Source: Candidatus Poseidonia sp. (GTDB taxonomy: Archaea; Thermoplasmatota; Poseidoniia; Poseidoniales; Poseidoniaceae). Taken from it: a DNA stretch of 64,000 bases. The stretch spans positions 88,491 to 152,490 of the forward strand of contig JAKMEE010000047.1 of the NCBI GenBank assembly GCA_022426155.1. Direction: 5' to 3'. The position numbers and the translations under genes are program-made. Below are positions 22,908-36,033 of the stretch, piece after piece; within the stretch, counting starts at the first letter, position 1, and the number at the start of each line of letters is the position of its first letter. Below the pieces are notes generated by a model that was not told where the DNA came from, ran no database searches, and was given only the letters and a program-made list of their open reading frames with translations.

Positions 22908-23714
22908 ATGTCATCCCAGCACACCTGGGCCGACGAGGTCTGGCAAGACCCAAATGGTGGGTCGATTGTTCTTCATGGAACACTTCCAACCATTGTGTAC
23001 CCCAATGCCATGCGCCCTCGTCTGGATTATCACGGTCTCGCTCTTCTCGAATCACCCGATGTGGTTGATTTGTGGGAGCAAGAGGAACTGGATGAAGCCG
23101 AATCAAACGGAATCAACCTCACCCATGGCCTGATCTCTGGAGGGGCGTTCTCAAAATATCTTGAAGGCCTTGTAACTCTTGAGGACATCCAAGGTGGCCG
23201 GTTTCCAGACCCAGAACCTCGTCGACTTCAGCGCAATGCTGACCGACATGGAAGGCATGTGTTTTTCATTGAACCATTGGCTGATGACGAAGACTGGAGC
23301 GACTTCCTGACGGAAGAAGCCAAGGCTGTTTCTCATTGGAAGAAATTACTCGGCATGATTCGGATGTCAAAGCGATGGAAGCGATTTGTGAAACATCATC
23401 TCTTCCTAGTTGAGCAACCTCCAAAGGGACAATCGCCCAATTTGTCTTCAGCAAGCGTACTTGCAGCGGCATGGTGGGATATGGGGCAATGGTTGATTAC
23501 GCCTGAGTTGGCACTTCGCCGAGATGAACGCTACGCAAAGCGATTACGTGGTGCATTGAAGTTTCTCCGTGACGAATACGGAGATGATGCTTGCTTGCTT
23601 GCAGTTGTGCATATGCCGCATCGTCATGAAGTTCTGAAGGCGCTTGAAGCACATCCAACCCATGAGGAGATTTCATCAACAGTGACCTCTACCTTGGACA
23701 CGGAGGAAGAGTGA
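22908..23714 (+). CDS. Conserved-looking soluble protein, unknown function
   Basis: The 268-residue protein starts MSSQHTWADEVWQDP, with no signal or membrane segment. A basic helical stretch (MSKRWKRFVKHHLFLVEQPP) and a late LLAVVHMPHRHEVLKALEAHP are visible. The last segment weakly recalls the terminal part of TraB/PrgY-like proteins, but not enough to assign it. It starts ten bases after the giant surface gene and abuts the TBP-like gene (stop TGA, then ATG), so the three are probably one transcript. Confidence 0.65.
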   Translation: MSSQHTWADEVWQDPNGGSIVLHGTLPTIVYPNAMRPRLDYHGLALLESPDVVDLWEQEELDEAESNGINLTHGLISGGAFSKYLEGLVTLEDIQGGRFPDPEPRRLQRNADRHGRHVFFIEPLADDEDWSDFLTEEAKAVSHWKKLLGMIRMSKRWKRFVKHHLFLVEQPPKGQSPNLSSASVLAAAWWDMGQWLITPELALRRDERYAKRLRGALKFLRDEYGDDACLLAVVHMPHRHEVLKALEAHPTHEEISSTVTSTLDTEEE

Positions 23715-24257
23715 ATGAGCGGAAAATCCATCGATGTACGCGTTGAAAATCAACTCGTTCGTTTCATTTGTCCTACGCCACTTGACCACGATTTAGTCGT
23801 GAGCCAAGTTGGTGGTCAACGTAACAGCGGAGTAGTCATCAAGGTCCTTGACCGGCCACAAGCCACCCTCGTTATTGACGAAGAAGGACGGATTGTTGTT
23901 CATGGCACGCATCGCGTGGAAGCAGCACGAGCGGCAGCAAAAGAATTGTTGCTACGCCTTGGAATGGATGATAGTGGCTTAACCGCCGAAATGGGCCCTT
24001 TGGTTGCATCCTTCCACTTTGAGAAAGCCATTCAACTCCAATCGATTGCTGGTTCATTTTCATCTGGTACATCAGAATACGATGACCGATTAGGCTGTAC
24101 CGTTCTGACCGATACTCGCCATAATCTCACAATTCAGATCTGGCCGAATGGGAAATGTTTGGTGACCGACGCCCGCCACCCAAACATGGTGGCTATGTCG
24201 GCTGTTTATTGGCGCAACATCTTCACCGAAAACCGCTATTTTGTTGAACGAATTTGA
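23715..24257 (+). CDS. Divergent TATA-binding-protein-like protein
   Basis: The 180-residue protein has the length and two-repeat architecture of archaeal TBP. The first repeat, NSGVVIKVLDRPQATLVIDE then EGRIVVHGTHRVEAARAAAKEL, lines up along its length with the TBP pattern 'GLVYRLKDPK...SGKVVCTGAKS'. The second, DRLGCTVLTDTRHNLTIQIW then PNGKCLVTDARHPNMV, gives the same pattern but more degraded. The Phe residues that intercalate into TATA DNA in real TBPs are replaced (for example Asp after 'TLVI'), so ordinary TATA binding is doubtful. It sits in an operon with the surface protein and a TatD-like gene. A TBP fold reused for other ligands is an alternative. Confidence 0.7.
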   Translation: MSGKSIDVRVENQLVRFICPTPLDHDLVVSQVGGQRNSGVVIKVLDRPQATLVIDEEGRIVVHGTHRVEAARAAAKELLLRLGMDDSGLTAEMGPLVASFHFEKAIQLQSIAGSFSSGTSEYDDRLGCTVLTDTRHNLTIQIWPNGKCLVTDARHPNMVAMSAVYWRNIFTENRYFVERI

Positions 24258-24266
24258 GGGAGTTCC

Positions 24267-25136
24267 ATGGTGTATGACGGTCCTGTTTTGGACAACCACT
24301 TTCACCTTAATCTCAACGGCAGATACATAGAGGCTGCTCGAGATTTCCAGCGGGCTGGTGGAACCGATTTGGTTCTTGTACACTGTCCAGATTTCGCCTC
24401 ACCTCCTGAAACCCTCGAAGGTCATCGCTCCGCCTATCAAACGACCTTGGACATGGCCCAAAACGTGCGTTCAACACTTTCCCTCGGCGTTCGAGTGGTA
24501 CTCGGGCCCCACCCTGCAGCCTTCGCCCACCAATTTCAACGATGGATGGATGAAGAAGGGGAGGAGGGGGAAGAACGAGCCATCACCAATTACCGTCATT
24601 CCATTGACGCTGCCCTTGAATTCTATCGCGAAGGGCAAGCACACGCAATCGGAGAGGTCGGCCGCCCTCACTGGCCAGTCAGTGACAAGATTTGGGACCT
24701 TTCGAACATGCTACTCGATGAAACCATGCATCTGGCAGCCCAAGAAGGGTTGACATTGCAATTGCATGTTGAGGGCGAGTCTGATGAAACCTACTCCGAT
24801 TTATCCAAACGTGCTTTGAAGCAAGGGATGGAACTGAAGAAACTCGTTCGACATTATTCACCTCCAGATGTCCGAAGTTCACATACGCATGGTTTGACAC
24901 CAAGCGTCTTGATCGGAAAGGGCGCCTTGGAACGTTTGTTGGAGACCCATCAATCCTCAAGCCACGGGTTTTTGATGGAAACTGATTACATGGATGATTT
25001 GCGTCGTCCAGGTGCAGTACTTGGTCCAAAAACAGTTCCAAAACGCACCAAACAATTGATTGAAGCTGGCGTTGATGAAGAGGTTATTTGGAACACCCAT
25101 CAAACCCTCCCCAACTATCTCTACGGGGAAGAATAG
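24267..25136 (+). CDS. TatD-like metal-dependent hydrolase
   Basis: The 289-residue protein has an amidohydrolase TIM-barrel pattern. It starts PVLDNHFHLNLNGR (metal-binding HxH), then GVRVVLGPHPAAF and AHAIGEVGRPHW (Glu ligand). LTLQLHVEGES (His) and a terminal LMETDYMDDLRRPG (catalytic Asp) follow. TatD enzymes are DNases or related hydrolases. Here the family is clear but the substrate is not. It starts nine bases after the TBP-like gene on the same strand, so co-transcription is likely. Confidence 0.85.
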   Translation: MVYDGPVLDNHFHLNLNGRYIEAARDFQRAGGTDLVLVHCPDFASPPETLEGHRSAYQTTLDMAQNVRSTLSLGVRVVLGPHPAAFAHQFQRWMDEEGEEGEERAITNYRHSIDAALEFYREGQAHAIGEVGRPHWPVSDKIWDLSNMLLDETMHLAAQEGLTLQLHVEGESDETYSDLSKRALKQGMELKKLVRHYSPPDVRSSHTHGLTPSVLIGKGALERLLETHQSSSHGFLMETDYMDDLRRPGAVLGPKTVPKRTKQLIEAGVDEEVIWNTHQTLPNYLYGEE

Positions 25137-26416: not shown

Positions 26417-26438
26417 TAATAGCCACAGGGTGTTTTTC

Positions 26439-27230
26439 ATGTTGGGATTAGAAGGAAAAATTGCATTCGTGTTTGGCGTTGCCAGTGAAGACTCGATTGC
26501 ATGGGCGATTTGCCAACAATTAGCAGGGGCTGGCGTGACCCTCTATCTGGGCTATCAGAAGCGATTTATGAGCCGAGTTTTCCAATTAAAAGACCAATTG
26601 CCAGCCATCGGGGGGTTCTATCCATTGGACGTGGCCAGCGATGAGGCTACAAAGGAATTCTTCGATGCCTTTGCCAAGGATCACCCAGGGAAGAAAGCTG
26701 ATATTCTGATTCACGCAATCGGCTTCGCTCCACGTTCATGTTTTGACCGCCCGATCTTGTTCGTCGAAGACAGCGATATCAACACAGCCATGACCATTTC
26801 AGCCAATTCTCTTCAACGATGTTTGAAGCATGCATTGCCCTACCTCAATCCGGGCTCATCAACGGTCACATTGACCTACGCAGCCTCGAATCGTTATGTT
26901 CCAAATTATGGAATTATGTCGATGGCCAAAGCCGCTCTTGAGTGTTGGACACGGGAATTAGCATGTCATCTTGGTCCGGAAGGGCATCGAATTAATGCGA
27001 TATCCTCGGGGCCAATCCGAACCATTGCAGCGGGGGGGATTCCTGGATTTGACAGGATTCTCGATCACGTAGAAGCAAATGCCCCTCTTCGTCGTAATGT
27101 AAGCCAACAGGATGTCGCTGGCGCTACTCTTTGGCTTTCTAGCCCCCTTTCTGGAGGCGTTACGGGCCAATGCATCTACGTGGATGCTGGATATTCGATT
27201 ACGATGGTGCCAGAGAGCATCATGAACTGA
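26439..27230 (+). CDS. fabI: FabI-type enoyl-ACP reductase
   Basis: About 263 residues from ATG 26439 (the GTG at 26430 is an alternative). It is an atypical short-chain dehydrogenase of the FabI group. GLEGKIAFVFGVASEDSIAW matches the FabI nucleotide-binding loop with SIAW. The catalytic Tyr and Lys sit in NYGIMSMAK (Tyr-x6-Lys spacing unique to FabI). RTIAAGGI follows as in RTLAASGI of FabI. It reduces trans-2-enoyl carrier-bound substrates with NAD(P)H. It is the first gene of the acyl-synthase operon: the SD of the megasynthase overlaps its stop codon. In bacterial PUFA clusters this role belongs to PfaD, an FMN TIM-barrel enzyme, so FabI is a replacement. Confidence 0.92.
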   Translation: MLGLEGKIAFVFGVASEDSIAWAICQQLAGAGVTLYLGYQKRFMSRVFQLKDQLPAIGGFYPLDVASDEATKEFFDAFAKDHPGKKADILIHAIGFAPRSCFDRPILFVEDSDINTAMTISANSLQRCLKHALPYLNPGSSTVTLTYAASNRYVPNYGIMSMAKAALECWTRELACHLGPEGHRINAISSGPIRTIAAGGIPGFDRILDHVEANAPLRRNVSQQDVAGATLWLSSPLSGGVTGQCIYVDAGYSITMVPESIMN

Positions 27231-27240
27231 GGTGGCCAAC

Positions 27241-30200
27241 ATGAGCATCACAACGGAAGACGGAAAACCCTGCGAAGGATTGGAACAAGGCCCATTTGAG
27301 CCCATTGCAGTCATTGGCGTGGGCGCCATGATGCCCGATGCAAATTCAATCGATACATTTTGGCAAAACATTCTCGACCAAAAAATTAGCATCGCTCCGT
27401 TACCCGAAGGCCGTTGGCCTGGGAAGATTTCTCATTTCTGGCGCGAAGGCGAACCTGGGCAACACACTGAAGGATTCACGTATGCCAAAATCGGTGCATT
27501 GGTCAAGGGTTACGAATTCGATTGGCGCCGATGGCGTCAACCCCCGGGAACACTCCCACAGATTGACCCCTGCCAACTCTGGGCTGTTGGAGTGGCCGCA
27601 GATGCCATTGAGCATGCAGGATACGATGGCGAAGCCAAGGACATTGATCGAACCAAGACAGGCGTGGTGTTTGCTAACGCTCTTGGTGGTGAAAATCGTA
27701 ACCTTTCCAACATTCGTGTTTGGTCAGAACATACGAAACAAATCGCACTTGAACATGGCTTACCTTCTGGAAATAGTGAGGGCTTCGTCGAAACAATTCT
27801 TGAGGGAACTCCACGCATTGACGAAGATACCATGCCAGGTGAACTTGCCAATGTCGTTTCAGGCCGAGTCGCCAATCTCCTTGATCTCCAAGGCCCTAAT
27901 CACGCCATGGATGCGGCATGTGCATCTTCCATGGCTGCCGTTTTGGACGCATGTCGTTTACTGCAATTGCGCCAAGTCGATGTGATGCTTGCAGGGGCAA
28001 CCGATCGTACCATGGACCCTGCAACCTTTGCGAAATTTTCAGCCATCGGTGCTTTATCCCCTACTCATTCCTCGCCTTTCGATGCCCGAGCAAACGGGTT
28101 CGTTATGGGGGAAGGTGCTGGAGTCTTTGTGCTCAAGCGACTTCACGATGCGATAGAAGATGGCGATGAGATTTACAGTGTCATTCGAGGCATTGGAGGT
28201 TCATCTGATGGCAGAGGCAAAGGAATCACAGCGCCAAGCCAACGCGGTCAGATCCAGGCCATTGCCCGAGCTTACAGTCAGGCGGGCTATCCAGCATCAT
28301 CGGTTGAACTCGTTGAAGCCCACGGTACATCCACCAAGGTTGGAGACGCCACAGAATTATCCACCCTGTCTCGACTTTGGACAGGGGTTGAAGGAACGGG
28401 TCGGGTGGCGGTTGGTTCCATCAAGTCGCAAATCGGCCATCTCAAGGCAGCAGCAGGAATTGCAGGCATGATGAAAACCGTCATGGCACTTCATCACCGC
28501 ACTATTCCCCCAAGCGCAAATTTCGAGACGCCCAATCCGACGGTTGATTGGTCGAGCATTCCATTCTTTGTACCAACTCAAGCAATGGATTGGCCAAAGC
28601 CCACACAACACCCTCGTCGTGCAGGCGTTTCTGCCTTTGGTTTCGGCGGAACCAATTTCCACGTCGCTCTCGAGGGGTACGATCCAGAATATCACCTGCC
28701 AATGGCTGAAGCATGGTCGCAGCGTTGGTCCGCTTATTCTCAGCAGTCCGTTAGAAATATCGAGGCCCCCTCGATTTTTGACTCCACCTCCCGCCCCACT
28801 CTCACGCATGAAGAACTCAAGTCCATTGAGGGCGGAGTGCTGTTGCTCTCTGGCGCAAGCATATCTGACCTTGGAGGCCAATTGCAATCTCTCAATTTTA
28901 GTGGGCCGCTCTTTGATGAAGACCCAAGAGGCCGAAGAATCTCGGAAGCTTTCCAATCAGCCAGCGCATCGTTCGATGCGAAAGCGCCCGCTCGGATGGC
29001 CATTGTTGCCACATCGTGGGCAGATTTCCAAAAGCGTGTCGCCCTTGCCGGAAAAGCGATGGATGACCCTGAAAAATGGGGTTTTCTTCAATCTCAGGGC
29101 GTGTTGATCACCACGGAAACACCGTTGCCAGACGGTGCAAAAGTCGCTCACATGTATCCTGGCCAAGGCAGTCAATACGTTGGTATGACCAATGACCTAG
29201 TGAAACGTTTCACTGCACCAGCGGAGGTTTGGAAACAAGCCGATATCACCATGGTCGAGGTTTTGGAGGGCGAAACCCTCTCAAGTTTCGTTCTTCGTGA
29301 CTCGCTTAGCAAAGAAGAATTGTTGGAAGCAGAGCACAAACTGAAACAAACCGAATACACACAGCCTGCAATGCTCACGGCTGATTTAGCCATTGAACGG
29401 ACCTTGAATGCCTTTGGGCATGTCCCCGATATGGTTGCAGGGCATTCATTGGGTGAATATGCGGCATTGATGTCTTCGGGAATTCTCGATATGGATGGAG
29501 CCCTACGTGCTGCTGCTGCTCGTGGAACGGAAATGGGTTCGGTTGAAATTGAGGATAAAGGCCTCATGGCAAGTGTTACTGCTCCTTATGAAGCGGTTGA
29601 ATCTGTTCTTAACGCCTCGGAGGGCTACGTCATTGCTGCCAACAAAAACTCACCAAAGATGACCGTGATTGCAGGTGAAACTGACCCGGTGCGAGCAGCT
29701 ATGGCTGTCTTTGAAGAGCAAGGTTTCAACTGCGTGGAATTAGCAACTTCTCATGCATTCCATTCCAGAATCGTTGCTCCCGCTAACGAACCGCTTCGCC
29801 GGTTTTTGGAGAGTTTAGAAATCCGTTGGCCAAGTATTCCAATCACTGCAAACGTTGATGGTACATTTTATCCAATGCAAGGAGATGATTCTAAGGCCTC
29901 CATTCTTGAAAAATTAGCCCCACAAATGGCTTCCGCTGTGGAATGGACCAAGCAAATAGAATCCATGTATGAGGCTGGGGCCCGCGTCTTTGTTGAAGTC
30001 GGACCAAAACGAGCATTGACGATGTTCGCCGTTCAAATTCTGGAAGGACGACCTCACATTCCAGTGATGTCAAACCATCCAAAGCAGGGCGGTATCGCCA
30101 CCTTCTTCACTGCCTTGGGCGCACTGGCGTTGGCTGGCAGGGCGCCACAATGGCCTGCATTGAATTCTGATGCCATGAGCGAGGCCTTTCGAGCAGGCCC

Positions 30201-33200
30201 CATCGAAGCCCATCAATCACACTCGGCAACCGCCTCATCTTCCGATGAACTTGAGGCGCTTCGTATTCGAGCACGCCCGCTCCCTGGCACGGGTAGCAAT
30301 TCAGTATCTCCTGTAATCGCGTCAGGCTCAGTCGGAGACTCAACGATGGCCCAAGAACGTGCCCTTAGGGCCTATGTTGGCGACCGTATCGCCCAACACA
30401 GCGGCTACCCCGCTTCATTCTGTCACGGGAACGTCCTTCTTCGTGAAGGTCTGGGATTGAATGAATCCTCAGTGCAAGCTGTCATCGCCCGTTTGGCTCA
30501 GGAAGCCCAAACTGACTCAGAAGTGGACCCTCAAACAGCAACCACCGCTGGAGATTTGATGCGGTGGGTGAAAACTCCCCCCTCCAGCTGGTCACCTGTT
30601 ACCTCTGTCACCGCTCCCTTGCACTCATCTGGTACAACTATCAAGACAGTTGCTGCTCTTCAGAGTGGTCAACCATCCCGCCGAGATGTGGATCCATTCG
30701 TCGTCACGGGTGTTTCATTGGGTCTGCCAGGAATGGAACGGGTTTTCTCGGAAGATACTTTCGAACAATTGGTACGAGGAGACACTTGCATTTCTGAAGT
30801 ATCGGACGAATACAAACAACGATTGCTTGACAAAAACATTGTCCGCCTCATTAAGGGGCGCGATGGATCTGTCAACATGGATCAAGCGACAGTCTTCGGA
30901 GATATCCCTCAACTAGCGGGGCTCAAAGGTGCATTTGATTTGGCAGAAGAATTTGGAATCGATCCGAAGGCAATTGTGGCTTGGGATGTCTCAACACAAT
31001 TGGCCGTTGCCGCTGGATTGCTCGCATTGAGGGATGCAGGAATACCGCTCACTCCAGTCGAACAAATCGGGAAAGGCGGATTGCGCTTGATTCGTAATTG
31101 GCAGGTGCCACAAGCTCAACGTGACCGTACTGGAATTGTCTTTTCATCGTGCTTCCCAGGGTTGCAAATGGCATCCAAGCATGCCAAGACCAATGGAGAT
31201 GATGGTGAGGGTCGTTTCGACCGTCGGTACCTCTTCCAAACCCTCAACATGGGGCATTCCCAATTCGCTCAATACACCGGCATACGAGGTCCTAACACGA
31301 CCGTTAATCTGGCCTGTGCTTCTGCAACCGCAGCTTTTGGCGTTGCTGAAGATTGGCTTGAAGCAGGCCGTGTTGACCGCGTGGTTATCATCAGCGCCGA
31401 CGACGTGACGGGTGATGATTTGTGGGAATGGATCGCTGGCGGTTTTGCTGCCTCCGGTGCTGCAGCCACTGGGAATATCATTGAAGAGACTGCATTACCA
31501 TTTGATCGACGACGTAACGGACTCATTCTTGGCATGGGCGCTGCAGCCTTCGTGATTGAACGGCATTCTGAAGCAGCAGAAAGAGGCGTTCAGCCCATCG
31601 CTGAATTCCTCGGTTCAACGACTGCAAATTCCGCTTTTCATGGAACACGTTTGGATGTGGAACACGTTGGAGGAGTTGTTGACGCATTCATGGGGTCAAT
31701 GGAGAAACGATGGGGGATTGACCGCCATGCAATTGCTCCAGAGACCGTGTTCTTTTCACATGAAACATTCACTCCAGCAAGAGGCGGTTCTGCCCAGTCG
31801 GAAGTCAGGGCATTACGCGAAACATTCGGACCATCCACGGACAAGCTGGTTATTGCGAACACAAAAGGCTTCACTGGCCATCCAATGGCAGTCGGTATTG
31901 AAGACGCAAGCATGTTTTACGGCATGTTGACTGGACGAATCCCACCGATTGCAAATTGGAAGGAAAAAGATCCTGAACTTGGGAATTTGAACCTCTCCAA
32001 AGGGGGGCATTATCCAAATCTCAACTATGGTTTGAGGTTCGCAGCAGGATTTGGTTCTCAAATCGCACTTTCACTCGTACGACGTTGGCCTGTAGAAGGT
32101 GAACGCATTGATGGCGCTAAGTTGCTCGCATGGACTCGCCAACTCGCAGGGACCGACGATGTTGTGATGCGTATTTTGCAAAACAAACTCGTAGCTTATG
32201 TCAACGGTGATGACAATTTACACGGTGGTGTTCAGGGAGAGCCATGGGCCTCAACTTCCGAATGGGAAGGTAAACCTTCGCAAGTTCAGGGAGTGGTAAC
32301 GCCAAAAGAAGCCGCTCCGACGCCCCCGCCTCCTGCTCCTGAAACCCAAACGCCTCCTTCAGTTCCTGCCGTCTCTTCTGGCGATGCAACAACGGTCGCC
32401 ACAGTGATTGAAGTGGTCGTTGAGCACACGGGTTATCCTGCTGATTTTGTTGAACTGGACCAAGACCTTGAAGGGGAATTGGGCATTGATACTGTGAAAC
32501 AAGCCGAGATTATGGCAGATATTCGAGAACGGTTTTCTTTACCCATCGACGAAGATTTTGTTCTTTCAGATTATCCAACGCTGAGCCACATGATTGGTTA
32601 TATCGAACAGATGACCGGTGGGGCGCCATCCAGTTCGCCAGCACCCGCTGCTCCTGCTATTTCTGAGGTACAAACAGAGGCCGCACCCCCTTCAAGCCCT
32701 TCGCCAGTTTCTTCTGCGGCTCCATTACACGATGAAGACATGAATGCAACCGTGGTTGCTGTGGTCGTTGAACATACAGGGTATCCAGCGGATTTCATTG
32801 AATTGGACCAAGATCTCGAAGGTGAACTTGGAATTGATACGGTCAAACAAGCAGAGATTATGGCTGATATCCGTGAACGTTTCTCCCTTCCAATCGATGA
32901 CGACTTTTTGCTCTCGGATTATCCAACCCTAAATCACATGATTGGTTACATTCAGCGCATGACCAGTGGCGAGCCAGTTGCTACTCCCGCCCCAGTCCAA
33001 ATACTGCCACAGGAGGCTCCCAAGGACTCTCCCGCTCCAACATCTGTGGCCCCCAATCTATCTGTTCCAGCGATTGCAGGTCAGCATTCAGACATTGAAG
33101 CAGTGTTGATTGAAGTGGTGGTTGAACACACGGGTTATCCTGCGGATTTCATTGAAATGGACCAAGACCTCGAAGGTGAACTCGGCATCGACACCGTCAA

Positions 33201-36033
33201 ACAAGCCGAAATCATGGGCGATATCCGTGAACGATTCTCCCTGCCCTTGGACGAGGATTTTGTCTTATCCGACCATCCCACATTGAATCATTTCACGGCC
33301 TACATTCTCAAGATGACCGGCGGTGGAGAGGTGGATGTGGCAGCGGAAGTTCCAGCTGAGCCTTCATTGCCCGCAACCCAGGAGAACACCCCCTCGGTAG
33401 TTGCACAAGCCACTCGTCGATGGCAAGTTGAAGTTGAAGCTTGCCCAGGAACAAATGAACCCATGTCTCTTGAAGGCACTGTAGTCGTCACCGATGGGGG
33501 CTGGGGAGTGGCAGAAGCCTTCTGTCAAAGAATGGAGATTCGTGGATTGAATGCGGTACGCATCGGCTTTGAGAGCAACATTCGAGATCCTTCCGTCTTG
33601 GACGAGAAAGGCAGAACAGTCTACCGAGCAGATCCTGGCCAACCTGAGCATATCCAATGGGTTTGCGACCAACTAAAGGATGAATCAATCAGCGCATTGA
33701 TTCACATGGCACCGATGAAAATCGCTTCTGCTCAGTGGGACGAAGATACCAACCCATCGTCTCAAATCAATCTTGCAGCCCACGGATGGTTTTCTTTACT
33801 AAAAGCCATGAACAGCCGACTCGTCGAAGGTCGCGCTGGAATTGTGGCCTCTGTGACTGCCATGGATGGACGACACGGAAACATCGGTGAACGCTTCAAT
33901 TCCGTTCAATGTGCGGCTTCAGGTGTGACAAAATCTTACGCCTTTGAGCGGCCTGACCTACGATGCAGAGCCATTGATTTGCACCCTGATCTCATCTTTG
34001 AGGAAGCGGAAGCGGCGATGATGATTGAACGGGACCTGTTTGATCTGGGGGGCGATGTTGAAATCGGATTGGACCGTGATGGCCGACGTTGGACTTTGGT
34101 GGCTTTTGCTGAAGATTTGGTTGACGAACTCCAACCATTAACCAATGAAGATACATGGATTGTATCAGGCGGAGGCTCTGGCGTCACAGCGGCATCAGTC
34201 ATTGGTGTCGCCAAGGCGTCACCCGATGCAAAGGCTCACTTCGTTCTTCTTGGACGTTCACAGCTAATCGAGACCACTGCAACTTGGATTGATTGGAGCC
34301 CCGAACAACTCGAGAAAGAAAAAGGTGCCTTGAGACAACGCCTCATTGATGCGAGTGAGAGTGGCAAGGTGACGATGGTCGAATGGAACAATGCATGGCA
34401 GAAGTTCACGCGCAGTCGAGACGTATACATCACCATGGATTCCATTGGGCAAACAGGCAACACAGCAGCCTATGAAGCGGTTGATGTCATGGATCACGAG
34501 GCACTTTCTGAACTTGGAGAAAACTTGGGTCGCCCCATCACTGGAATTGTTCATGGTGCTGGCCTTGAAGATTCAAAATTGGTTGATGACAAATCCCACG
34601 ATGTCTTTGACCGTGTCGTACGAGTCAAGGTTGACGGATGGCGTTCACTCATGGCTGCTGTTCAGTCATCTGGACGAGACGCTCCAAAGTTCGCATGTTG
34701 TTTCACCAGTGTCGCTGGACGGTTTGGAAACGGTGGTCAAACAGATTATGCAGCAGCTAATTCAGTATTGGATGCTGAAATGGCACGCCTCACTGCAAGT
34801 TCAACGTGCCGAGCCGTTGCTATTGGCTGGACGGGGTGGCGAGATGTTGGTATGGCGACCAGAGGTTCAATCGAAGCCGTGTTCGCCGCAGCAGGAATTG
34901 CAACCCTCTCCGTTGAAGACGGAGTCTCTCTCTTTGTTGGTGAAGCATTGCAGGGTGGAAAACGAAGAGTTCTCGGATGTGGGACACTCGGTTTGATGGA
35001 TCAATTCGATGCATTCCGAGAAGCTCCTCTCAAATTGCCACCTGGTATGGCAGCCACGATTGCAGACCCCGCAAGGTTCCCCTTCGTGGACAAAGTTATC
35101 GGATTAGAGGAGAATGTTTCACTGTCAACACAGTGCACCCTTTCAGTTGCAGATCATCCGTTTTTGGCCGACCATTCCATCGAAGGAGTCCCCTATCATC
35201 CAGGCGTGATGGCACTTGAGATGTTTGCTCAAAATGCACTTTTGCTTTGCCCTGCAACCTGTCTTGCAGGGTTTGAAGATGTGACCTTTGGGCTACCGGT
35301 CAAACTCATGAAAGGTCCGATGACGGTTCGAACTGTGGCCACGGTTGCGAACACTGATGGCGATCTCACATGGGTGAAATGTTCACTTGTTTCGGACCTC
35401 ACTAATTCCAAGGGCGAAGTGTTTGGTGAACGTGAACATCATTCTGCAATGGTTCGCTTAGTTGGATCAAGTGATGATCTGAGTGCATTTCTCCAAGAAG
35501 AAGTGAATCGATTGCCCAACGTGGGCGTGCCTCCTAAAGGTGATTTGCTTCATCATCCATCGTTCATATATCTCCGTTATTTCCACGGTGCACGTTTCCA
35601 ATCACATGGCGGTGTACTACGCGGCGTAGGGGATGGAGAGATGCTTGGAATAGATGGTATTGCATTGATGCGACATCAGCTGCCTGTGACAGAACAGTTT
35701 GCCACAGAAAGCGAGGGTGAAGCGGTGCTGCTCGAAGCCTTACCAATGCTGATTGAAGCAGGTTTCCAGAATGCAGGTTTGGTGGCCATGGAATCCATGG
35801 GCTTCAGCAGCCTCCCGATTGGAATTGAATGGTCAACCATGTTACGAGTTCCAGATTCAGAAGAATATCTTCGACTCAGAAGCCTTCAAACAGATGAAGA
35901 GGAAGGGGGAGTATCGGTCCATGACGTGCTGATTGTTGGTGAAGATGATGCCCCAGTGATGGCTCTCAAAGGTTTACGCCTCAAGGCCATGGGGCAAGTC
36001 GCCGAAGATCAAAAGTTCAACCTTGAGCGATGA
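27241..36033 (+). CDS. PUFA-synthase-like iterative acyl synthase KS-AT-(ACP-like)-KS-ACP3-KR-DH
   Basis: About 2,930 residues. ATG 27241 has GAGGTGG upstream, and residue numbers here follow the track's GTG at 27232. KS1 occupies 22-450 with Cys230 (DAACASS), His364 (EAHGTST) and His403 (SQIGHLKAA). The acyltransferase at 640-960 has Ser739 (GHSLGE) and SHAFHS at His844, suggesting malonyl-CoA. A degenerate carrier-like segment at 1043-1095 ends GLNESSVQ. KS2 (1153-1625) retains Cys1362 and His1510, with His1550 in TKGFTGHPM. Three tandem carriers have GIDTVKQ with Thr1754, Thr1870 and Thr1988 at the expected Ser. The KR has GGGSGV at 2313, Ser2493 and Tyr2506. A double-hotdog dehydratase with His2648 ends the protein. 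Reduction uses FabI upstream, and the PPTase stop-start overlap follows. The product is unknown. Confidence 0.9.
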   Translation: MSITTEDGKPCEGLEQGPFEPIAVIGVGAMMPDANSIDTFWQNILDQKISIAPLPEGRWPGKISHFWREGEPGQHTEGFTYAKIGALVKGYEFDWRRWRQPPGTLPQIDPCQLWAVGVAADAIEHAGYDGEAKDIDRTKTGVVFANALGGENRNLSNIRVWSEHTKQIALEHGLPSGNSEGFVETILEGTPRIDEDTMPGELANVVSGRVANLLDLQGPNHAMDAACASSMAAVLDACRLLQLRQVDVMLAGATDRTMDPATFAKFSAIGALSPTHSSPFDARANGFVMGEGAGVFVLKRLHDAIEDGDEIYSVIRGIGGSSDGRGKGITAPSQRGQIQAIARAYSQAGYPASSVELVEAHGTSTKVGDATELSTLSRLWTGVEGTGRVAVGSIKSQIGHLKAAAGIAGMMKTVMALHHRTIPPSANFETPNPTVDWSSIPFFVPTQAMDWPKPTQHPRRAGVSAFGFGGTNFHVALEGYDPEYHLPMAEAWSQRWSAYSQQSVRNIEAPSIFDSTSRPTLTHEELKSIEGGVLLLSGASISDLGGQLQSLNFSGPLFDEDPRGRRISEAFQSASASFDAKAPARMAIVATSWADFQKRVALAGKAMDDPEKWGFLQSQGVLITTETPLPDGAKVAHMYPGQGSQYVGMTNDLVKRFTAPAEVWKQADITMVEVLEGETLSSFVLRDSLSKEELLEAEHKLKQTEYTQPAMLTADLAIERTLNAFGHVPDMVAGHSLGEYAALMSSGILDMDGALRAAAARGTEMGSVEIEDKGLMASVTAPYEAVESVLNASEGYVIAANKNSPKMTVIAGETDPVRAAMAVFEEQGFNCVELATSHAFHSRIVAPANEPLRRFLESLEIRWPSIPITANVDGTFYPMQGDDSKASILEKLAPQMASAVEWTKQIESMYEAGARVFVEVGPKRALTMFAVQILEGRPHIPVMSNHPKQGGIATFFTALGALALAGRAPQWPALNSDAMSEAFRAGPIEAHQSHSATASSSDELEALRIRARPLPGTGSNSVSPVIASGSVGDSTMAQERALRAYVGDRIAQHSGYPASFCHGNVLLREGLGLNESSVQAVIARLAQEAQTDSEVDPQTATTAGDLMRWVKTPPSSWSPVTSVTAPLHSSGTTIKTVAALQSGQPSRRDVDPFVVTGVSLGLPGMERVFSEDTFEQLVRGDTCISEVSDEYKQRLLDKNIVRLIKGRDGSVNMDQATVFGDIPQLAGLKGAFDLAEEFGIDPKAIVAWDVSTQLAVAAGLLALRDAGIPLTPVEQIGKGGLRLIRNWQVPQAQRDRTGIVFSSCFPGLQMASKHAKTNGDDGEGRFDRRYLFQTLNMGHSQFAQYTGIRGPNTTVNLACASATAAFGVAEDWLEAGRVDRVVIISADDVTGDDLWEWIAGGFAASGAAATGNIIEETALPFDRRRNGLILGMGAAAFVIERHSEAAERGVQPIAEFLGSTTANSAFHGTRLDVEHVGGVVDAFMGSMEKRWGIDRHAIAPETVFFSHETFTPARGGSAQSEVRALRETFGPSTDKLVIANTKGFTGHPMAVGIEDASMFYGMLTGRIPPIANWKEKDPELGNLNLSKGGHYPNLNYGLRFAAGFGSQIALSLVRRWPVEGERIDGAKLLAWTRQLAGTDDVVMRILQNKLVAYVNGDDNLHGGVQGEPWASTSEWEGKPSQVQGVVTPKEAAPTPPPPAPETQTPPSVPAVSSGDATTVATVIEVVVEHTGYPADFVELDQDLEGELGIDTVKQAEIMADIRERFSLPIDEDFVLSDYPTLSHMIGYIEQMTGGAPSSSPAPAAPAISEVQTEAAPPSSPSPVSSAAPLHDEDMNATVVAVVVEHTGYPADFIELDQDLEGELGIDTVKQAEIMADIRERFSLPIDDDFLLSDYPTLNHMIGYIQRMTSGEPVATPAPVQILPQEAPKDSPAPTSVAPNLSVPAIAGQHSDIEAVLIEVVVEHTGYPADFIEMDQDLEGELGIDTVKQAEIMGDIRERFSLPLDEDFVLSDHPTLNHFTAYILKMTGGGEVDVAAEVPAEPSLPATQENTPSVVAQATRRWQVEVEACPGTNEPMSLEGTVVVTDGGWGVAEAFCQRMEIRGLNAVRIGFESNIRDPSVLDEKGRTVYRADPGQPEHIQWVCDQLKDESISALIHMAPMKIASAQWDEDTNPSSQINLAAHGWFSLLKAMNSRLVEGRAGIVASVTAMDGRHGNIGERFNSVQCAASGVTKSYAFERPDLRCRAIDLHPDLIFEEAEAAMMIERDLFDLGGDVEIGLDRDGRRWTLVAFAEDLVDELQPLTNEDTWIVSGGGSGVTAASVIGVAKASPDAKAHFVLLGRSQLIETTATWIDWSPEQLEKEKGALRQRLIDASESGKVTMVEWNNAWQKFTRSRDVYITMDSIGQTGNTAAYEAVDVMDHEALSELGENLGRPITGIVHGAGLEDSKLVDDKSHDVFDRVVRVKVDGWRSLMAAVQSSGRDAPKFACCFTSVAGRFGNGGQTDYAAANSVLDAEMARLTASSTCRAVAIGWTGWRDVGMATRGSIEAVFAAAGIATLSVEDGVSLFVGEALQGGKRRVLGCGTLGLMDQFDAFREAPLKLPPGMAATIADPARFPFVDKVIGLEENVSLSTQCTLSVADHPFLADHSIEGVPYHPGVMALEMFAQNALLLCPATCLAGFEDVTFGLPVKLMKGPMTVRTVATVANTDGDLTWVKCSLVSDLTNSKGEVFGEREHHSAMVRLVGSSDDLSAFLQEEVNRLPNVGVPPKGDLLHHPSFIYLRYFHGARFQSHGGVLRGVGDGEMLGIDGIALMRHQLPVTEQFATESEGEAVLLEALPMLIEAGFQNAGLVAMESMGFSSLPIGIEWSTMLRVPDSEEYLRLRSLQTDEEEGGVSVHDVLIVGEDDAPVMALKGLRLKAMGQVAEDQKFNLER
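32392..33318 (+). repeat. Three tandem acyl-carrier domains
   Basis: Three copies of a carrier domain of about 75 residues are separated by Pro/Ala-rich linkers, repeating about every 350 bases. Each begins VVEHTGYPADF and has DLEGELGIDTVKQAEIM. The Thr codons are ACT, ACG and ACC, and the surrounding synonymous sites differ, so the copies are old and kept under protein-level selection. Confidence 0.9.

Follow-up and report, generated by a model that had tools for sequence, protein, structure and literature searches.

A divergent TBP paralogue of Poseidoniales, possibly serving a new role beside a TatD-family hydrolase

Within the window, which is the whole 64,000-nucleotide stretch of Candidatus Poseidonia sp. 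DNA that was analysed, we identified a gene for a divergent two-lobe TBP-fold protein, here TBPx, in a tight same-strand cassette with an order-specific protein (up268) and a TatD-family hydrolase. TBPx is a real gene and a TBP paralogue. Our tentative reading, at close to but not quite an even prospect, is that it is an ancient TBP duplicate standing outside the canonical TATA-binding role and working with up268 and the TatD-type hydrolase. A more specific form of this, in which an entire two-lobe TBP no longer takes any part in transcription and instead positions nucleic acid or substrate as a subunit of a TatD hydrolase complex, is a possibility that we hold with rather less than even confidence. 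The three genes are:

22908..23714, + strand: up268, order-specific protein, 268 aa; its stop codon is followed immediately by the TBPx start
23715..24257, + strand: TBPx, divergent two-lobe TBP-fold protein, 180 aa (Pfam TBP, AlphaFold2, Foldseek, order-wide clade)
24267..25136, + strand: TatD-family metal-dependent hydrolase (Pfam TatD_DNase, 1e-21)

The Pfam family PF00352 matched TBPx with E=2e-11 and 44 bits (cut-off 22.9) in two stretches corresponding to both repeats, bearing out the TBP pattern that a sequence-only reading had claimed for each. The same family matched 21/21 order-wide homologues tested (E<=0.1), and a search of solved structures with the 21-homologue profile matched TBPs, down to 1e-11. 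An AlphaFold2 model built from the homologue alignment (pLDDT 91) showed the strand and helix order of two TBP lobes. With this model, the first 44 Foldseek matches were all TBPs or TBP-containing complexes, with TM up to 0.83, to Pyrococcus woesei TBP (1ais). Profile-profile comparison with canonical TBPs was colinear across 169 columns at a probability of 96%. Assignment to a different family would have spoken against the sequence-only reading; Pfam, profile search, AlphaFold2, and Foldseek all gave TBP. Chance resemblance is ruled out by the Pfam and homologue matches, Foldseek, and the profile-profile comparison. A canonical TBP was also looked for elsewhere in the genome and was found on contig C48; it has FPG stirrups and the complete set of four Phe, and its presence rules out TBPx as the sole TBP of this genome. 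We found no published description of TBPx in the open-access literature searched.

TBPx was present in nearly all Poseidoniales (marine group II) genomes searched, in both families. No orthologue was found outside the order in the rest of the phylum, where matches to the TBPx profile were weak and were mainly canonical TBPs or separate divergent paralogues. A maximum-likelihood tree grouped TBPx into a single, long-branched clade (100/100 support), within which the branching roughly matches the families, indicating vertical inheritance. For closely related pairs, dN/dS was 0.011-0.041 for TBPx and 0.006-0.019 for canonical TBP. TBPx is under strong purifying selection, and values of 0.01-0.04 rule out a pseudogene or a relaxed copy.

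Other unusual TBPs were encountered in these searches, and extra TBPs were seen in several Thermoplasmatota genomes. Loci in other Thermoplasmatota families carry two TBPs in tandem, with a divergent copy immediately upstream of the canonical one (L111:3860-4966, L119:1407-2638, L120:1488-2684). Another highly divergent TBP, in sister-class MAGs (L171:12197-12775, +; f3, genus g23), is flanked by probable Dph2 and PP-loop genes, a cassette different from that of TBPx. In the canonical Poseidoniales TBP, ~20 to 50 extra residues are inserted near the start of the C-lobe (L030:1144-1758, -; also L044, L050, and L058), a feature absent from other Thermoplasmatota TBPs. One MAG holds an 89-aa single-lobe TBP (L036:1480-1749, +), in which the start of lobe 1 is fused to the end of lobe 2, possibly through an inter-repeat deletion or as an assembly artefact.

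The neighbours of TBPx were found to be fixed across the order. In 89/89 loci TatD is the next gene 3' of TBPx on its strand, and in 86/86 up268 is the next gene 5'; some loci duplicate one genome, and the three at which up268 is missing lie at contig ends or are cut. The three genes abut or overlap, and their order is inherited order-wide. Several second-family genomes have the three genes as an isolated unit amid unrelated genes. A giant surface protein, an enoyl reductase, and a PKS flank the cassette in Poseidoniaceae and at two loci of the other family, and are absent at the remaining second-family loci examined. These surface and lipid flanks are therefore not general, and the unit of association is up268-TBPx-TatD; the surface protein was rejected as the main context of TBPx because its link does not hold generally across families. 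In the window, positions 26430-36033 hold the enoyl reductase (SDR) and then a 2933-aa polyketide/fatty-acid-synthase-like protein, an arrangement conserved after the cassette in Poseidoniaceae. The sequence-only reading had placed TBPx with a surface protein and a hydrolase rather than with transcription genes. The hydrolase link proved universal, the surface-protein link is limited to Poseidoniaceae and a few other loci, and the cassette indeed contains no transcription gene. The conserved upstream partner, up268, was absent from that account.

Among 145 genomes of the phylum, up268 was confined to Poseidoniales. Its AlphaFold2 model reached pLDDT 90, and a search with 16 homologues gave no significant Pfam family match. 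Fold searches returned no trusted match in the PDB (best 8bqs_DQ, rmsd 15 Angstrom) and no convincing viral match, with one weak BFVD match at E=0.26. Comparison with TraB/PrgY/GumN gave a weak match (hhalign probability 6%, P=0.006 over an ERDxYxA...GAGH block), so that a likeness of up268 to TraB is only a hint. The cassette TatD has the full set of metal ligands (H11, H13, E130, H167, H196, and D240; HxH, Glu, His, His, Asp), invariant in 15 sequences, as in the TatD DNase family (PF01026); it departs from that family in its constant linkage to a TBP paralogue and an orphan protein. No close relative by sequence was found among solved structures. TatD was single-copy in 38/39 genomes, with none detected in the remaining one, and the cassette TatD is the only TatD of its genome.

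Residue changes in TBPx were counted over 55 distinct sequences in yeast TBP numbering, with some positions readable in 54. Beyond those given in PMC7221094 and PMC3142196, the contact roles assigned to these positions are those of TBP structures. The main positions are:

23826..23828, + strand: Ser38, at the intercalating Phe99 position of the N-lobe stirrup; S/G in 55/55
23877..23879, + strand: Asp55, at the intercalating Phe116 position (N.L5.1); D/E in 55/55
23901..23903, + strand: His63, at the minor-groove Thr124 position; His in 54/54 readable sequences
23997..23999, + strand: Pro95, at the base-contacting Asn159 position; P/D/E/G in 55/55
24081..24092, + strand: D123-D124-R125-L126, a degenerated C-lobe stirrup replacing E-P-E-x-F-P-G
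24141..24143, + strand: Trp143, at the Phe207 position (C.L5.1), the sole retained aromatic; W 37, F 17 of 54

Asp55 is spaced from P48 and H63 as in canonical TBPs; with equal spacing to the Pro before it and the T/H-G after it, its assignment to F116 is gap-free. The E-P-E-x-F-P-G of the canonical C-lobe stirrup comprises the TFB-binding acids and Phe190; the Phe190 position is L/V/I in 55/55 TBPx sequences. This stirrup is one residue shorter in TBPx, making the register there uncertain; whichever register is taken, the E-x-E pair is gone, with at most D123 and R125 (D-x-R) in its place. In human TBP, E284/E286 are the acidic pair that binds the TFB counterpart (PMC7221094). The Asn69 position is Asn in 40/55, while the Thr215 position is variable. 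Near-invariant positions include E11, R16, H63, G64, E77, E92, and G94, and R16, D55, and H63 should lie on the N-lobe concave face, judging by strand parity with known DNA-facing residues.

The intercalating aromatics were reported by the sequence-only reading to be lacking, and three of the four Phe sites are indeed non-aromatic in 55/55 sequences, but the F207 site is still Trp or Phe. With one aromatic position in four, TBPx does not carry the canonical four-Phe set, and the combination of altered TATA-contact residues with a conserved fold is that of TRF/TLF-type paralogues. The changes F116 to D/E and F99 to S/G, each in 55/55, disfavour minor-groove kinking by the N-lobe. Like archaeal TBP (PF00352), TBPx has the two-lobe fold, the length, a colinear profile, and the C-lobe L5.1 aromatic; unlike it, TBPx has three of four Phe, Asn159, and Thr124 replaced and E-x-E lost, is encoded with TatD, and coexists with a canonical TBP. 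TBPx is a member of the TBP family whose tested residues set it apart from functional TATA-binding TBPs.

The earlier alternatives were a specialised factor or a TBP fold with a new job. The second is favoured by the TatD cassette, the acidic F116 site in 55/55, and the retention of TBPx without a second TFB, TFBx, described below, as well as by the 86/86 and 89/89 adjacency, the standalone units, the single-copy TatD, and its intact metal ligands; the low dN/dS of TBPx also counts for a role in the cassette. In the mechanism that we propose, up268, TBPx, and TatD would form one complex. The C-lobe may still pack on a nucleic acid, given the aromatic that it keeps at the universal nucleic-acid position. 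On the N-lobe, acidic D/E55 together with the invariant Arg16 and His63 could offer a docking face for a protein or ligand. TBPx might then recruit or position substrate for the TatD nuclease, much as the single TBP lobe of RNase HIII does in cis. RNase HIII and RnlA both have a TBP-like lobe alongside nuclease activity, and the L5.1 aromatic of RNase HIII touches the duplex (PMC7221094). The N-terminal TBP-like domain of RNase HIII and RnlA resemble TBPx in placing a TBP lobe outside transcription beside a nuclease function; theirs is a single lobe in cis to the nuclease, whereas TBPx has two lobes and is a separate protein.

Several points weigh against this role beside TatD. Conservation of the operon with up268 and TatD is no proof of a complex, and nuclease activity of the cassette TatD is assumed from its family. 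Families related to TatD include non-nuclease hydrolases. A lineage-specific TFBx with an altered TBP-contact site is present in most genomes, which suits a transcription role, and dinoflagellate TLF binds DNA without all four Phe.

The main rival, to which we give a substantial minority chance, is that TBPx is a TBP-related initiation factor of the TRF2/TLF kind, acting at non-TATA promoters or on unkinked DNA and possibly paired with TFBx. The typical Poseidoniales genome encodes two TFBs, one canonical and one divergent (TFBx, about 330-380 aa), the latter a complete TFB with Zn ribbon, linker, and two cyclin folds. TFBx orthologues are confined to Poseidoniales (E<1e-136, vs about 1e-69 or weaker for other TFBs). 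The TBP-contact motif is PR[Q/R/K/P] in 15/15 TFBx and PR[T/S] in all 33 other full-length TFBs compared; we take the Arg-Thr of PR[T/S], from sequence, to be the TBP-contacting residues of TFB named in PMC7221094. Some copies of a third TFB, a shorter one in the sister class, likewise deviate from PR[T/S] (PLT, PIT). The TFBx gene was located at G000:C40:155089-156084 (L155:5075-6121 -). The altered motif raised the idea of an orthogonal TBPx-TFBx pair, in which D123 of TBPx could still pair with the Arg kept in TFBx, and which was examined by co-occurrence. TFBx was not detected in 25/118 second-family genomes, among them 8/11 of one genus (Fisher p=1.6e-4). TBPx was kept in 20/20 genomes without detected TFBx, a count limited by MAG incompleteness, so that strict dependence of TBPx on TFBx is not supported. 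The TFBx interface change and this retention give conflicting, indirect signs as to whether TBPx would bind a TFB.

Factors of this kind have precedent. Halophiles combine TBP and TFB paralogues for promoter choice (PMC7289017), and proteins that lack the usual Phe or do not bind TATA can nevertheless serve in initiation: metazoan TLF binds TFIIA and TFIIB and not TATA (PMC3142196), and dinoflagellate TLF binds a TTTT element although it has none of the four Phe (PMC5029490). TRF2/TLF/TBPL1 of Metazoa and dinoflagellate TLF are, like TBPx, fast-evolving paralogues beside or instead of TBP, with the absence of TATA binding in TRF2 and of the four Phe in dinoflagellate TLF as further likenesses. 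TBPx differs from them in being archaeal, in its acidic residue at F116, in its conserved operon with a hydrolase, and in its altered TFB/TFIIB site. The haloarchaeal multiple TBP/TFB sets and Sulfolobus TFB3 are likewise paralogous basal factors, theirs for special programmes, whereas TBPx occurs throughout one order in a fixed cassette, with its DNA and TFB surfaces both altered. An initiation role fits poorly with the retention of TBPx where TFBx was not detected, the acidic F116 site in every copy, a cassette free of any transcription gene, and a TFB site reduced to at most D-x-R.

It is unlikely that TBPx does without any nucleic acid role and acts instead as a protein-protein adaptor or antagonist, whether a TBP/TFB decoy or a regulator of the adjoining lipid and surface genes. 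Its concave-face residues are swapped for charged ones, and TFS4 offers a transcription-factor paralogue turned inhibitor (PMC7289017); however, the lipid and surface genes are not conserved neighbours at most second-family loci, and W/F at C.L5.1 in 54/54 suggests a retained nucleic acid contact. An ordinary extra TBP, drifting and still TATA-binding, is very improbable: archaea commonly have extra TBPs (PMC7289017), as do several Thermoplasmatota genomes, but three of four Phe, Asn159, and Thr124 are consistently changed to specific residues under strong purifying selection, and this fixed replacement pattern weakens the idea.

Few proteins of archaea and eukaryotes are as constrained as TBP. 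A paralogue kept throughout an order, tied to a nuclease-family gene and altered on both its DNA-kinking and its TFB-binding surface, would be a natural test of the TBP fold beyond promoters. If TBPx is an initiation factor, it would establish a non-TATA route to initiation among abundant marine archaea. If the more specific reading is true, a TBP turned subunit of a TatD complex would have become established throughout an archaeal order that is abundant at the ocean surface.
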